A DNA stretch of 59,722 nucleotides from positions 1 to 59,722 of the IMG/VR virus record IMGVR_UViG_3300044637_002283; one strand, written 5' to 3'. Positions 34,190 to 40,915 of this stretch are shown here, in pieces (the stretch's first letter is position 1; every line of letters starts with the position of its first letter). The notes beneath the pieces are model-generated. The model was given only the letters and a program-made list of their open reading frames with translations. It did no database searches and was not told where the DNA came from. The position numbers were made by a program, and so were the translations under genes. Origin of the DNA: a virus.

Positions 34190-35221
34190 ATGACTATCAA
34201 TCTAGACAATGTTGATTTTTCAAAAGTAATTGCCATAACTGATGTGCATTTTGGCATGCGGAACAACTCCAAACAGCACAACACTTGGTGTACTGAGTTT
34301 TTGGAGTTTGTGGTCAAACGAGCACAAGAGCTGAAAATCAAAACACTCTTGTTTTTGGGCGACTGGAGTCACAACCGCAACAGTGTGAACATCAGCACAC
34401 TCAATTACAGCCACAATGGCATGAAACTGCTAAACAACAATTTTGACAATGTGATAATGCTCTTGGGCAACCATGATCTCTATTTTCGAGATACTCTAGA
34501 GCTGCACAGTATTCCCTATGCACAGGATTTTTCAAATATTCACCTAATTGACAAAATCACCACAGTCAAAGACTATTGTTTTGTTCCTTGGTTGGTGGGT
34601 GATGAGTATAAGTTGATTCAAAAAATCAAACAGCCTTATTTGTTTTGTCATGCTGAAATTGCCAAGTTCCGGATGAATGCCATGGTGGAAATGCCCGATC
34701 ATGGCGGCTTGAACAGTGAACACTTTCAAAATCAAAAATTGGTGTTCAGTGGGCATTTTCACAAAAGGCAGCGAAAGGGCAACATTTGTTATATTGGCAA
34801 TGCCTTTCCTCACAACTTTGCAGATGCGGGAGACGATGATAGAGGGTTGATGATCTGGACTCCTGGAACTGATCCCATATTTGAAAAATGGCTTAGTGCA
34901 CCCAAGTATCGCACGTATAACCTTACAGAGGCACTTCAGGATCCTACCGGCTTGATAGACAACAAAACTTTCGCACGGATAACAGTAGATGCTGACTTAA
35001 CTTATGAAGACCTTGCCTTCATTAGAGAGTTATTTGAAACTCAGCTAGCTGCCTTGGATGTGAGTTTTATTCATGGCAGAAGTGATGGAGATGACACTGT
35101 TCTTGATGATAGTGAAATCAATTTTGAAAGCGTTGACTCAATTGTGGTGTCACATTTGAATAGTATTGAAAGCACTACAATGAACAAACAACGCTTGATT
35201 GAAATCTATCAGAGTATTTGA
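34190..35221 (+). CDS. gp47: Recombination endonuclease subunit, gp47/Mre11-like
   Basis: 343 aa, matching T4 gp47 (339 aa). Calcineurin-type metallophosphoesterase motifs are all present: ITDVHFGMR (motif I), FLGDWSHNRN (II), LLGNHDLYF (III), CHAE and FSGHFHKRQR (IV/V). It pairs with gp46 to resect DNA ends for recombination-dependent replication. Ribosome site AAGGAG. The stop overlaps the gp46 start by 4 bp, so the two are co-translated. Confidence 0.93.
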   Translation: MTINLDNVDFSKVIAITDVHFGMRNNSKQHNTWCTEFLEFVVKRAQELKIKTLLFLGDWSHNRNSVNISTLNYSHNGMKLLNNNFDNVIMLLGNHDLYFRDTLELHSIPYAQDFSNIHLIDKITTVKDYCFVPWLVGDEYKLIQKIKQPYLFCHAEIAKFRMNAMVEMPDHGGLNSEHFQNQKLVFSGHFHKRQRKGNICYIGNAFPHNFADAGDDDRGLMIWTPGTDPIFEKWLSAPKYRTYNLTEALQDPTGLIDNKTFARITVDADLTYEDLAFIRELFETQLAALDVSFIHGRSDGDDTVLDDSEINFESVDSIVVSHLNSIESTTMNKQRLIEIYQSI

Positions 35222-36999
35222 ACTTGATCATCCTCAAAAACGTCACAATCAAAAACTTCATGAGTGTGGGTGCTGTTACACAATCAGTTACTCTCACACA
35301 ACCTGGCTTGACTCTTGTATTGGGCGAGAATCTAGACTTGGGCGGCAACGGCAACCGGAATGGTGTTGGCAAATCGACGCTGATTTCAGCCATTTGTTAT
35401 GCCCTGTATGGTCAAGCTCTTACTAACATCAAGAAAAACAATCTCATCAACAGCATCAACAAAAAGAACATGGTGGTGAGTATTGAGTTTGAAGCCCACG
35501 GCAACAGCTACAAAATTGAACGTGGCCGTGCCCCTAGTTTTTTCCGCTATGTTGTAAATGATGAATCAGTAAATGAAAACAAAAGTGCAGACGAAGCTCA
35601 AGGCGAAAACAAAGATACTCAGAAAGAGATTGAGAAGGTATTGGGCATCAGCCACACCATGTTCAAACACATTGTGGCTTTGAACACCTATACTGAGCCA
35701 TTTTTGAGCATGGGTGCTGGAAAACAGCGAGAAATAATTGAAGAGCTGTTGGGAATTACATTACTGTCTCAGAAGGCAGAAAACCTCAAAAAGCTTATTC
35801 AAACAACCAAACAAACTATTGAACAAGAAGAGTTCAAAATACATACTATCAAAAACAGCAATACACGTATTTTGAGCACTATTGAAAGTTTGAATCAAAA
35901 AACCCAACAGTGGGATACTCAACATCAGAACAAAATTCAAGACTTGGAAAATGCACTAGATGCTTTGAGTCATCTTGATGTTGAGCAGGAAATTCAAAGT
36001 CACAAAGACAATCTTGTGTATCGTGAACTTCAAACAGCATTGAAGAATGTGCGCAGCCAAAGCCAAACAAAAACACAGCATGGAACACAGCTGAAGGCGC
36101 AACAAAACAACTGGTTAACTCAGTATAGTCAAATTCAAGACCACAACTGCGCAATGTGTGGTCAAAAGATTCATGACGAGAAACAAACACATCTGCTGGA
36201 CGACCTTGAGCACAAAATTACCAAACTGGACAGCAGCATTCAAACACTGGAACAGGAATGCCTGAGTTTGACACAAGAACTGGATGAGCTCATGGGTCTG
36301 TCTAGTGCTGTATCGCTAAACCAAACATTTTACAAAAGCATTGATGAGGCATATGAGCATCGAAACAGTCTCACACTTCTTAGTGGTGAACTGGACAAAC
36401 TTAAGCTTGAAACCAATCCTTATCAAGCCCAAGTGGGTAATTTAAATGACACACTGCAAGAAGTCACTTATGATTCACTAAATGAACTCAGCCAACTCAA
36501 AGACCATCAAGAGTTTCTCTTGAAGCTGCTAACAAACAAAGACAGCTTCATCCGAAAGCGTATTATTGATCAAAACCTCAGCTACTTGAATCACAGACTG
36601 GGTGAATATCTAGCTGGATTGATGTTGCCACACCAAGTTAAATTCAGCAACGACTTGGGAGTTGAGATCATGCATATGGGCGTAGACTTTGACTTTGACA
36701 GTCTCAGCCGAGGTGAACGCACAAGAGTTTGTTTGGCACTCAGCTGGGCATTCCGAGACATTTTTGAAAACATGAACACCAGCATCAACTTCATGGCTGT
36801 TGATGAGATCCTTGATGTGGGACTTGACAGCACAGGACTTGAAAGATCTCTAGAGACGCTTAAGGCTATGAGCAGAGATCGGAACAAGAACATTTTGTTG
36901 ATCTCACATAGAGAAGAGCTAACAAGTCGCTGCGATCGAGTTTTGTATGTTATCAAAGAGTTAGGTTTCACTCGTTTCAGCTATGAAAGCGGTGAGTAA
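35218..36999 (+). CDS. gp46: Recombination ATPase, gp46/Rad50-like
   Basis: 593 aa (T4: 560). TTG start in TTGA overlapping the gp47 stop. Walker A GGNGNRNGVGKSTLISA (about residues 40-56), long coiled coil (residues 180-430) broken by the zinc hook C-A-M-C-G-Q, signature motif SLSRGERTRVCLALSW and Walker B FMAVDEILDVGLDS. The hook dimerises two arms; with gp47 the complex processes DNA ends. Tight overlap supports translational coupling. Confidence 0.93.
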   Translation: MNLIILKNVTIKNFMSVGAVTQSVTLTQPGLTLVLGENLDLGGNGNRNGVGKSTLISAICYALYGQALTNIKKNNLINSINKKNMVVSIEFEAHGNSYKIERGRAPSFFRYVVNDESVNENKSADEAQGENKDTQKEIEKVLGISHTMFKHIVALNTYTEPFLSMGAGKQREIIEELLGITLLSQKAENLKKLIQTTKQTIEQEEFKIHTIKNSNTRILSTIESLNQKTQQWDTQHQNKIQDLENALDALSHLDVEQEIQSHKDNLVYRELQTALKNVRSQSQTKTQHGTQLKAQQNNWLTQYSQIQDHNCAMCGQKIHDEKQTHLLDDLEHKITKLDSSIQTLEQECLSLTQELDELMGLSSAVSLNQTFYKSIDEAYEHRNSLTLLSGELDKLKLETNPYQAQVGNLNDTLQEVTYDSLNELSQLKDHQEFLLKLLTNKDSFIRKRIIDQNLSYLNHRLGEYLAGLMLPHQVKFSNDLGVEIMHMGVDFDFDSLSRGERTRVCLALSWAFRDIFENMNTSINFMAVDEILDVGLDSTGLERSLETLKAMSRDRNKNILLISHREELTSRCDRVLYVIKELGFTRFSYESGE

Positions 37000-37011
37000 T
37001 TATCTGTACTC

Positions 37012-37019
37012 CATAAATA
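37012..37019 (+). promoter_or_regulatory. Late promoter before the GIY-YIG gene
   Basis: CATAAATA, 7/8 to T4 late consensus, upstream of the hairpin and ATG 37085. Confidence 0.6.
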
Positions 37020-37028
37020 TAGATATAT

Positions 37029-37058
37029 GCCGGTCACGACCCTGGCAGGTCCACCGGC
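37029..37058 (+). promoter_or_regulatory. 5'-leader hairpin of the GIY-YIG homing gene
   Basis: Stem GCCGGT (37029-37034) / ACCGGC (37053-37058), with inner GACC (37038-37041) / GGTC (37048-37051) and loop CTGGCA. It lies between the late promoter and the ribosome site (AAGGGAG, 37070-37076). T4 homing endonuclease genes commonly carry leader hairpins that limit early translation. Confidence 0.6.
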
Positions 37059-37084
37059 TCTATCGCTTTAAGGGAGCAACAGCT

Positions 37085-37909
37085 ATGTCTATTTATCGTA
37101 ATATCAAACCCTTTGGGTTTTATGTGTATGCCTACTTAAGAAAAACAACATCCAACAATGGTCCTGCAGGAACCCCTTATTATATTGGAAAAGGGACCGG
37201 CATACGTTACAAAGAAAACCACGGAACTCTACCTGTACCAAAAGAAGCATGGAGGATTGTTGTCCTTGAACAAGGATTAACTAATCTTGGTGCTGTTGCG
37301 CTCGAAAGAAGGCTGATACTCTGGTGGGGACGCCTGGATAATAACACAGGTATATTACACAATCGAACTGATGGCGGGGATGGGGCAGTTGGGAAGATAG
37401 TCTCTGATGAATCAAGAATGAAAGCAAGTGTTAACAATTGTGGCAAAAAAAGAAGTGCAGAAACAATCAAGAACATAAAAGATGCATTATCTCTTATCGA
37501 CAGGTCAGGAGAGAATCATCCGTTATATGGCAAAAAGCATTCTGATGAAGCTAGATCTAAAATGAGCGAAGCTAAAAAAGGCAGGTCCTATGAAGAAATT
37601 TATGGCCCAAAAGCAGAAGAGATGCGAGCTGCACGCTCACAAAAATCTCGGGGACGAAGTCTGTCTGCTGAGACCAAAGAAAAGATAAGTTTAGCAAATC
37701 GAGGCAAGAAAAAACCTGCAGGCTTTGGAGTCCGAATGTCCGCAGTAAGGTCTGGCCAAAAAGTCTCTGAAGAAATTTTGAAGAAGAGAGCACAGATATT
37801 CGAAGCAACAAAACAAACTTGTGAACATTGCGGGAATATCTTTGGTTTAGCGAACTATATCAGATGGCATGGTCCTAATTGCAAAACTCAACCTAACCAA
37901 CTACTATAG
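37085..37909 (+). CDS. GIY-YIG homing endonuclease, 274 aa
   Basis: ATG 37085 after AAGGGAG. N-terminal GIY-YIG-type nuclease (FYVYAYLRK...TPYYIGKGTGIRY). Residues 130-225 hold three or four NUMOD3-like DNA-binding motifs (GKKRSAETIKNIKDA; GKKHSDEARSKMSEAKKG; GRSLSAETKEKISLANRG). The C-terminus has a zinc finger (CEHCGNIFGLANYIRWHGPNC). Free-standing, inserted between gp46 and the minus-strand nuclease gene; preceded by its own late promoter and hairpin. Not an intron product as no split gene flanks it. Confidence 0.88.
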   Translation: MSIYRNIKPFGFYVYAYLRKTTSNNGPAGTPYYIGKGTGIRYKENHGTLPVPKEAWRIVVLEQGLTNLGAVALERRLILWWGRLDNNTGILHNRTDGGDGAVGKIVSDESRMKASVNNCGKKRSAETIKNIKDALSLIDRSGENHPLYGKKHSDEARSKMSEAKKGRSYEEIYGPKAEEMRAARSQKSRGRSLSAETKEKISLANRGKKKPAGFGVRMSAVRSGQKVSEEILKKRAQIFEATKQTCEHCGNIFGLANYIRWHGPNCKTQPNQLL

Positions 37910-38532: not shown

Positions 38533-39342
38533 ATGAAGCACAACAAGCCACAACACCGCAGCATTTTTATTGTAGTTGATCCAGTAGATCAAAATCGGCT
38601 CAATAGTTTTTTCCGACAAGAGTTGGGATTTTACAATACCCTTGTAGGAACCTTTGGAAGTCGTGTAAGAGCATTTCCACAAACTATTCTCAACATCACA
38701 CACGATCAAGCATCACTCTTTTGTGATCTAGCCAAATACAATCTCAACATTCGCGAATTGGTGAAAAAGCCTCAAGAATGGCCTGAACAACTGAAAAGTT
38801 ATTTTCCAGTTGCTTTTGACAGACTCACACAAAAAACAATTTTGACCGAAGCGCAAATTATGATGTTTGAATCTGCCGGAGCCAATCGCTGGATTATGAT
38901 TCCAGAAGCCAAAAAACAGATGGCTAGAGCAGTTATTGATTTTTACAAAGAGCAAGCAGACATTTTGGCTCATCCCCAATCAAGCGATATAATTGAGGTG
39001 GCTTACAAGACACCACCCAGCAGCTTGAGTGAGTTGGAAATCAGCAACAAACGTCATGCACAGATCCCTCGTAATGAAATCAAATACAAATACAACAACA
39101 CTGAACAACATACAGAAATTTGGACTCCGTTAACTACAAAACCCATTATTATTCCGCATTTTAACCTTAACGAATACAATCGATGGACAACAGCAATAGT
39201 CAAGCAAGAGAGTGGTAGATTCTGTGAATACAACACACCTTGGGTAATTGACTTCAAAAATACAAAAAACAATTATCTTTTGAAATATCTAGACAGCACA
39301 GCACGTAGTCCAGGCAATTATAGAATCAGCAACTACGCATAA
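38533..39342 (+). CDS. Protein of unknown function beside the candidate RNA, 269 aa
   Basis: ATG 38533 is chosen because the promoter at 38480-38508 ends just upstream; a longer frame from 38416 overlaps the nuclease gene start. Ribosome site weak. Sequence is mixed, with IFIVVDPVDQNRLNSFFRQE at the N-terminus, an aromatic-rich middle and a Tyr/Asn-rich C-terminal third (EIKYKYNNTEQHTEIWTPL). I see no catalytic motif; no RuvC, HNH or zinc-ribbon pattern. A hairpin-rich, gene-free segment begins about 20 bp downstream on the same strand, so the protein may act with that RNA; this is inference only. Confidence 0.65.
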   Translation: MKHNKPQHRSIFIVVDPVDQNRLNSFFRQELGFYNTLVGTFGSRVRAFPQTILNITHDQASLFCDLAKYNLNIRELVKKPQEWPEQLKSYFPVAFDRLTQKTILTEAQIMMFESAGANRWIMIPEAKKQMARAVIDFYKEQADILAHPQSSDIIEVAYKTPPSSLSELEISNKRHAQIPRNEIKYKYNNTEQHTEIWTPLTTKPIIIPHFNLNEYNRWTTAIVKQESGRFCEYNTPWVIDFKNTKNNYLLKYLDSTARSPGNYRISNYA

Positions 39343-39364
39343 CAGAGTATATTTTTAAAACATA

Positions 39365-39728
39365 GTGGCTTTATATGATGGTGTAGTGTCCATCCGTATC
39401 TACCAGGCGCGAAGGCCGGGGAAAATTGCGTATGAGGGTTTACGGTTCTATGCCCTCGCCACAAAAGTGAACAAAAAGGATCCAGCCTCTCACTGTCCCG
39501 TGACGCTGGAAGGGGTTCAGTCAACAGCCTGTCTGACTGAATTCCCTGCGTGTGTGATGAGCACATAACCGAGAAGGCAGCTCCATGAGCATAAGTCCGA
39601 GAAGAGAGTCAGGAACGCTGGAAATAGGTTCTCCGCCAGCTGGAAGCAATTCCCAAGACGAGACAGGCAGGCCGAAGCCCTATACGAAAGCCTTTTCACA
39701 CTTCTCCTCCCGGTGGGGAGAAGTGTGA
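39365..39728 (+). ncRNA. Candidate structured RNA of unknown family, about 360 nt
   Basis: Gene-free, GC-richer than flanks and dense in strong hairpins: GAGGG 39434-39438 / CCCTC 39453-39457; TCCAGC 39481-39486 / GCTGGA 39505-39510 with TCAC/GTGA inside; TTCAGTCA 39516-39523 / TGACTGAA 39534-39541; GCTC/GAGC 39580-39590; GCTGG 39617-39621 / CCAGC 39636-39640; GGC-CGAA-GCC 39670-39679; and a 12-bp closing stem at 39696-39728. No match to tmRNA, RNase P, 6S, group I or II intron core, as far as I can compare from memory. Strand assigned plus because the upstream gene and its promoter read that way; the minus strand is not excluded. Confidence 0.6.
39696..39728. repeat. 12-bp perfect inverted repeat ending the candidate RNA
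   Basis: TCACACTTCTCC (39696-39707) / GGAGAAGTGTGA (39717-39728), loop TCCCGGTGG. No T-run on either side, so not a normal intrinsic terminator; more likely the terminal stem of an RNA or a processing site. Confidence 0.75.
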
Positions 39729-39848
39729 CTTCCTCCCTAACGAAATACCCAGAACTATTATCAGTCCAACAAGTATCCTATTCCAGATCCAATAATATCA
39801 TCAATAAGATCATTGAGATTCATACTAGATCACGCCCAGCTAAAATTA
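39729..39848. other. AT-rich spacer, no recognised gene
   Basis: Between the candidate RNA and the end of the gp26 frameshift extension. Only a 20-codon minus-strand frame (beginning MNLNDLIDDI) is seen, too short to support. Confidence 0.55.
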
Positions 39849-40088
39849 TCACTTCTTTGATTGAGCCTTCCTATAAGCTTCGGCTTGCATCTCATAGTGT
39901 TTGGAAATAGTTCCACTCAAAGATTTCATCTGTGAAGTGGTGAGACGCCAAGCTTCACTGTAGGTGAGTCCTCCGTTCATGTAATACACTAGGTTGGCAA
40001 TATCGCTTTCAATCATTTCCACTTCTTTTTCGCAGCTTCTCAGTACTTGGGTGATGGCTACATGATCACCCCTGAGAAGCTTTAGTCG
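39849..40088 (-). CDS. -1 frame extension of gp26 (79 codons)
   Basis: Open frame in the -1 phase to gp26, from the slip site to TGA at 39849-39851. It encodes RLKLLRGDHVAITQVLRSCE...KEVEMIESDIANLVYYMNG... ending RKAQSKK. It has no start codon near its beginning (first in-frame GTG/ATG are 25 codons in and lack a ribosome site), so it should be made only as a gp26 fusion of 276 + 79 residues. The layout equals lambda gpG-T, where the frameshifted tail recruits the major tail protein while the common part binds the tape measure. In T4 a separate gene, 51, follows gene 26; this extension may be its counterpart. Confidence 0.78.
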   Translation of the reverse strand, partial: RLKLLRGDHVAITQVLRSCEKEVEMIESDIANLVYYMNGGLTYSEAWRLTTSQMKSLSGTISKHYEMQAEAYRKAQSKK

Positions 40089-40094
40089 AAAAAA
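40034..40094 (-). promoter_or_regulatory. Programmed -1 ribosomal frameshift signal
   Basis: Read on the minus strand: slippery heptamer T TTT TTC (40094-40088) in the correct phase, then a 6-nt spacer GACTAA (40087-40082) holding the zero-frame stop, then a stem-loop (40081-40034): 10-bp perfect outer stem AGCTTCTCAG / CTGAGAAGCT and a 7-bp perfect inner stem GGGTGAT / ATCACCC with a 9-nt loop and a 5-nt bulge on one side. All three parts of a canonical -1 frameshift site are present with ideal spacing. Confidence 0.88.
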
Positions 40095-40915
40095 CTTGTG
40101 GGATCAAAGTCAATTGACTGGCTCCAAGTGTGTGAGCAACCGTCGCATTGAAAAGAGGTTTCGGTATCAATACCAGTTTTGTTGAGCTCTTTCAACTTGT
40201 CGATGATGGCGTTGGCACTGGTTGTGGGAATACCTTTCACAAACTCTTGAATGTATTCTTGATTGGTGACCAGTTCACCACTACTGATTATTTTGATTTC
40301 AGTTATGCTCATGGCCATGATGTCCAATGTGCGTTTGGCCATGTGATTCACTTGTTTGGTCACACTACTGATCTTTTCTGCATCAGTTGTGTCTGTTTCT
40401 TGTAACACTTTGATGCTTCTGGCTTGTTCCACTTCATTCAACAGTTGTAGATTTCTCTGCTCAAAGTTGTAAGGACGCAGGAAAACTTGGAGTGCTCCAT
40501 CTATTTCAATATAGGTGGGGCCTTCAACATAAGTTTGTGTTTCGATAAATGCAGAGAGGTCTATACCAAAGTTGTGCTCTTTTCCACAACTGGGACATGT
40601 GGTGTCTATTTCCATAGTTGACCCTGCACTGGCAATTCTTATGGCAACAAGTAGGGTGTTGATGTCAGGCTCCACAAGCTTCTTGGGATCTTTGACTCCA
40701 GGAACACAGTTTCGGAAAACACTCAACAATGCATCGCCATTCAACAGCGCATCAGGAGTTTTCAACATGATTTGATCAATAGCAGTCAACGGATACACTG
40801 CCATTTCGCCATTGGCTGAAGTCTCAAGGAAATCACTAGGATAAAATTTGCCTCGTGTTGGCAATTGTGCATAGGCCTTGGGTGTGTGAAAGTATTGACT
40901 CAATGGATTACTCAT
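40082..40915 (-). CDS. gp26: gp26-like baseplate hub / tail assembly protein
   Basis: 277 aa with the T4 gp26 (T4_baseplate family) pattern: PTRGKFYP near the N-terminus, YPLTAIDQIMLKTPDALLNG, CVPGVKDPKKLVEPDINTLL then ATRIAS-like region, and two CxxC pairs (CPSCGKEHNF about residue 110, CDGCSHTW near the C-terminus) that likely bind zinc. It is divergently transcribed from the tape-measure-like gene. T4 gp26 is needed for hub assembly and is absent from virions, consistent with a chaperone-like role. Two codons before its stop is a -1 frameshift site. Late promoter CTTAAATA lies upstream. Confidence 0.82.
   Translation of the reverse strand: MSNPLSQYFHTPKAYAQLPTRGKFYPSDFLETSANGEMAVYPLTAIDQIMLKTPDALLNGDALLSVFRNCVPGVKDPKKLVEPDINTLLVAIRIASAGSTMEIDTTCPSCGKEHNFGIDLSAFIETQTYVEGPTYIEIDGALQVFLRPYNFEQRNLQLLNEVEQARSIKVLQETDTTDAEKISSVTKQVNHMAKRTLDIMAMSITEIKIISSGELVTNQEYIQEFVKGIPTTSANAIIDKLKELNKTGIDTETSFQCDGCSHTWSQSIDFDPTSFFD

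Follow-up and report, generated by a model that had tools for sequence, protein, structure and literature searches.

Organization of the gp26 Locus

We have analyzed a stretch of viral DNA of 59,722 bases (IMG/VR virus record IMGVR_UViG_3300044637_002283), hereafter called the window. It contains a gene of the T4_baseplate family, gp26, whose 3′ end carries the elements of a putative −1 frameshift cassette. The features of the locus are collected in Table 1, where TAC stands for tail assembly chaperone; TAC-N is the short product, TAC-C the extension, and TAC-NC the fusion of the two.

Table 1. Positions in the window of gp26, the elements at its 3′ end and the divergent neighboring gene
Feature	Position	Strand	Basis
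gp26 (TAC-N), 277 aa	40915-40082	minus	T4_baseplate family
Slippery heptamer T TTT TTC, in phase X XXY YYZ	40094-40088	minus	Conserved place in relatives
Zero-frame stop TAA, one codon past the slip site	40084-40082	minus	
Putative two-part stimulatory stem-loop	40081-40034	minus	Stability compared with shuffles; compensatory changes in relatives
−1 frame extension (TAC-C), 79 aa and TGA stop	40088-39849	minus	Homologous extension in relatives
Tape-measure-like gene, 774 aa	41002-43326	plus	Divergent from gp26; position and annotation of relatives

The protein encoded by gp26 matched the Pfam family PF12322 (T4_baseplate) over residues 53-276, with 65.9 bits against a gathering cut-off of 24.5 (E = 5.5e-18), and PHROG 150 ("baseplate hub") with E = 4.5e-20. 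AlphaFold2 was supplied with alignments of the fetched loci, and the N part and the extension were modeled as separate pieces. The model of the N part is confident (pLDDT 93); that of the extension has four helices (pLDDT 90). The best fold matches among phage proteins were "baseplate hub (assembly)" proteins, together with many uncharacterized ones.

The gp26 protein also matched PHROG 1854 (P1 PmgB-like) weakly (E = 7e-5). The gene for PmgB lies just upstream of the tape-measure gene of P1, and its product has been suggested to be a tape-measure chaperone (PMC9024508). The weak match, taken with the place and suggested role of PmgB, hints that PmgB may belong to the same family as gp26.

Comparison with one relative, L034, revealed an uneven distribution of differences along the gene. 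The two sequences differ at ~12-27 sites per 75 nt over positions 40915-40315, and show almost no differences from ~40315 through 39250. The alignment thus places a sharp recombination breakpoint inside gp26 at ~40315.

The Slip Site and the −1 Frame

Read on the minus strand, gp26 ends AGT TTT TTC GAC TAA. A first-pass annotation of this DNA had proposed a −1 frameshift cassette here, and its coordinates for the heptamer, spacer, stem-loop and −1 frame all hold on re-reading of the sequence. The T TTT TTC heptamer is indeed in phase for simultaneous slippage, and it is separated from the stem-loop by the 6 nt spacer GACTAA, which includes the stop. This distance falls inside the ~5-9 nt range expected for a stimulatory structure. 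Such an arrangement is rare in the window. Counting both strands, there are 105 open reading frames of 100 aa or longer; an in-phase X XXY YYZ heptamer within the last 45 nt occurs in 2 of them, and gp26 alone of these two has an open −1 frame beyond it (79 codons, compared with 0 for the other).

The −1 frame is open from 40088 to 39852 and closed by TGA at 39851-39849. Translation confirms the 79 codons that had been proposed, and a predicted fusion of 276 + 79 = 355 aa. The extension had also been described as having no start codon of its own. This is correct for its first 22 codons, but codon 23 is a GTG and codon 25 (40016-40014) an ATG; these could give at most a piece of 55-57 aa, without the conserved N-terminal part.

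Conservation of the Cassette in Relatives

A profile search of IMG/VR with gp26 yielded at least 582 stretches that code for relatives. The best 80 of these were taken, and named phages were added. The relatives were picked by gp26 protein sequence alone, ignoring the slip site, and reduction at 85% protein identity left 64 non-redundant sequences, the window included.

All 64 sequences contain an in-phase slippery heptamer near the end of gp26. It is T TTT TTC in 52 of them, A AAT TTT in 9 and T TTT TTT in 3, and the zero-frame stop follows 3 to 33 nt past the heptamer. Tandem A AAT TTT TTC sites are found in other lineages of the gp26 family. The heptamer has been swapped for other slippery heptamers and not lost, which argues for selection on slippage; the predicted conservation is therefore borne out, and neutral loss was seen in none of the 64.

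The extension is also conserved as a protein. In 63 sequences the −1 frame codes for a homologous stretch of 70-93 codons; L067, with 51, is the exception. A single domain emerges on alignment of the extensions, and its consensus is R..LL...PE.I...L....K....I.........YM.GG.....AW.LS...R....K.I. The additional named giant phages RaK2, CBB, XbC2 and Erwinia phage pEa_SNUABM_47 all have T TTT TTC followed by the extension. In the public records of these four phages, and of PA5oct, 121Q, Munch, Atu_ph07 and Phosso, the long form is unannotated; the records either omit the extension or list it as a small hypothetical gene by itself.

The Downstream Stem-Loop

The stem-loop comprises an outer stem of 10 bp (40081-40072 with 40043-40034) and an inner stem of 7 bp (40071-40065 with 40055-40049). 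Its stability was compared with that of 300 shuffled sequences, obtained by permuting codons among synonymous positions of the −1 frame, which keeps both the protein and the codon set. The minimum free energy was −24.3 kcal/mol for the window, compared with −12.0 ± 2.8 kcal/mol for the shuffles (z = −4.5), none of which was as stable.

Over the 66 nt past the slip site, the 64 sequences have a mean z of −2.0, with 53% below −2; the combined z of ~−16 assumes independent sequences, an assumption that holds only in part. In 26 of the 64, a helix with no fewer than 8 bp is anchored where expected, compared with 7.2 predicted by synonymous shuffling. The exact stem geometry of the window is common to 11 sequences. 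Covariation in the hairpin, which the first-pass annotation had named as a sign in favor, is found in part: the outer stem in these 11 contains paired changes such as C-G to T-A and A-T to G-C, although this group was defined by pairing, so that its paired-change count alone is not independent proof. In a minority of relatives the structure is weak or absent (for example Munch, z +1.4, and L042, z +1.0). Judged by these comparisons as a whole, the downstream hairpin is conserved as a structure across the relatives. An Rfam search gave no frameshift element or other RNA at the gathering threshold; two sub-threshold matches nearby were taken as chance.

A separate observation concerns the region beyond the extension. 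An intergenic block of ~400-500 nt (39250-39750) lies between convergent genes: the extension, with its stop at 39849, on one side and a plus-strand open reading frame ending at 39342 on the other. It is 93.4% identical to L008, compared with ~81% for the gp26 gene. A strong hairpin is present in it, and one of its short motifs, GGTATTTCGTTAG, recurs in L013. There was no match in Rfam at threshold and none in the phage collection, and the fold z was −1 to −2. The block is possibly an unknown non-coding RNA or a terminator region. Elsewhere in the window, an open reading frame at 36983-37909 overlaps the end of a gene for an AAA/SMC-type (gp46-like) ATPase (35218-36999). By eye, its translation looks like that of a putative GIY-YIG homing endonuclease.

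The Tape-Measure-Like Neighbor

The product of the gene divergent from gp26 gave no match above cut-off in Pfam or PHROG, and T4 gp29 did not align with it by either BLASTP or hhalign. It has weak similarity (E = 6e-4) to the syntenic gene of Phosso, and the gene at the same place is annotated as tape measure or similar in RaK2 and Erwinia phage pEa_SNUABM_47. From its position and the annotation of the relatives, it is probably the tape-measure gene.

A distant member of the gp26 family, gp90 of Streptomyces phage LuckySocke (L130, 1845-2723; PHROG 150, E = 2e-16), is encoded between a tail-tube gene and a long minor-tail or tape-measure-like gene. This is the canonical position for a TAC. 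In LuckySocke the extension-like sequence lies open in the +1 frame, not in the −1 frame; no standard −1 heptamer is present, and the annotated gp91 starts within this sequence. The arrangement possibly reflects recoding, by a +1 shift or otherwise, or else a gene with its own start.

Comparison with T4, Lambda and Other Phages

Frameshifting is reportedly conserved in several groups of T4-like phages, and T4 itself is said to use genes 26 and 51. T4 gp26 and T4 gp51 each match PF12322 over the whole length of the model, so that the domain of the window gp26 is present in both. There is no slip heptamer at the end of T4 gp26. The gp51 protein runs ~48 residues past the PF12322 domain, from the point equivalent to the slip site of the window, where the match stops at residue 276, the last one before the slip. 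On the basis of these match ends, the fusion is laid out like gp51 and the short form like T4 gp26. Profile comparison of the extension with the C-terminus of gp51 gave a weak match (E = 0.03), aligned at the right residues. It had been noted that T4 keeps genes 26 and 51 apart. There are indeed two genes, but that description overlooks that gp51 is a full gp26-domain protein with a C-terminal extension. By this comparison T4 gp51 would be the long form, encoded as its own gene. The short and long forms of T4 come from two genes on opposite strands, whereas the window has one gene and a predicted slip.

The TACs of T4-like phages have been identified by Vladimirov, Gautam & Davidson (2022; Virology 566:9-15, doi 10.1016/j.virol.2021.11.003). 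As cited in PMC10885494, that study includes T4-like phages with separate short and long genes in place of frameshifting, and as cited in PMC12846349, poly-T slippery sequences in the TAC-N genes of T4-like phages. So described, these TACs are like the window in having a gp26-family TAC-N, a poly-T slip, and short and long forms. The first-pass annotation knew of no published −1 frameshift in this family. That claim to novelty falls because, according to both citing papers, TAC-N frameshifting in T4-like phages was published in 2022; the window cassette is a well-supported further example of an already published principle. A conserved −1 frameshift with a GTTTTT slip motif has also been described at the TAC locus of Pseudomonas phage Adele and other Vandenendeviridae and Andersonviridae (PMC12846349). 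These belong to other phage families, and are like the window in their poly-T slip and open −1 frame.

The cassette had been put forward as analogous to the G/GT system of lambda, and this fits every test run. Like gpG/gpGT, it would combine a −1 slip close to the end of the gene with a short and a long product, and its neighbor is probably a tape-measure gene. In lambda, however, the chaperone gene lies upstream of the tape-measure gene, whereas gp26 is divergent from its tape-measure-like neighbor. No homology to lambda G/GT or lambda-type TACs emerged from searches of the PDB, which gave no match by sequence and no significant match by fold, with HK97 gp13 (a TAC, 2ob9) at E = 4.1. By analogy, then, it is the working principle alone that is common to lambda G/GT and the window cassette.

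Mechanism and Alternative Explanations

We consider it very probable, from the sequence evidence, that the gp26 locus, as the TAC gene of a T4-like virus related to giant phages, makes both TAC-N and TAC-NC by −1 programmed frameshifting. Most ribosomes would stop at the zero-frame TAA, giving TAC-N. A minority would pause at the stem-loop and slip back by one base on the heptamer, with the tRNAs on TTT TTC re-pairing with TTT TTT. These ribosomes would bypass the stop in the −1 frame, giving the rarer TAC-NC, and the ratio of TAC-N to TAC-NC would be set by the slip rate. By analogy with lambda, TAC-N may coat the tape-measure protein (probably the product of the divergent gene), and the C-domain of TAC-NC may recruit tail-tube subunits. 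The slip site, the structure, the homologous extension and their conservation are visible in the sequences, and from these we infer slippage and a rate for it; lambda provides the model for that rate, the stoichiometry and the chaperone roles.

The extension might instead be a small gene of its own, with translation re-initiating at, or coupled to, the gp26 stop and no frameshift involved. In 4 of the 64 sequences (L036, Phosso, Atu_ph07 and 121Q) an ATG occurs no more than four codons from the slip site, and independent initiation may take place there; for Phosso and 121Q the annotation has an open reading frame of its own at the extension. None of the sequence-level refutations named in the first-pass annotation came about, however, and most relatives have no early start for the extension: in the window there is none in the first 22 codons, and 24 of the 64 have no ATG, GTG or TTG in the first 25. 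The heptamer is retained even in those sequences with the ATG. Moreover, the ATG arrangement is not conserved, since several lineages have their gp26 stop 9-33 nt farther downstream. We regard a separate gene as very improbable. Since a change of one base would restore a continuous frame, the extension might otherwise be a decayed remnant, or the result of a sequencing or assembly indel in a once continuous gene. However, dozens of independent contigs, and named complete genomes as well, have this frame break in an identical position, and the extension is conserved as a protein. This conservation refutes decay or an indel, to which we assign a negligible probability.

A further explanation accepts the frameshift, but takes the products to be assembly factors for the baseplate hub with no role as tape-measure chaperones. 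Names used in the databases ("baseplate hub", "baseplate hub assembly") favor this, and tape-measure binding is here argued from analogy. We think it unlikely, given the tape-measure-like neighbor, the N/NC architecture, the gene order in LuckySocke and the TAC assignment published for T4-like phages, as cited in later papers. The two roles are not mutually exclusive.

Implications for T4-Related Phages

The preferred reading, programmed frameshifting, may have a variant in the four relatives with an early ATG. Phosso, Atu_ph07, 121Q and L036 might conceivably make three products, TAC-N, TAC-NC and a free TAC-C, as a way-station toward the two-gene mode of T4; this is speculative, and we give it a small chance on their sequences. 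If true, then together with the lineages containing tandem A AAT TTT TTC sites, the family would show how phages change their control of protein ratios. Whether or not such a variant exists, TACs are very probably made by frameshifting as a rule in a wide range of T4-related phages, both giant and environmental, and it is the two-gene arrangement of T4 that looks like the exception.
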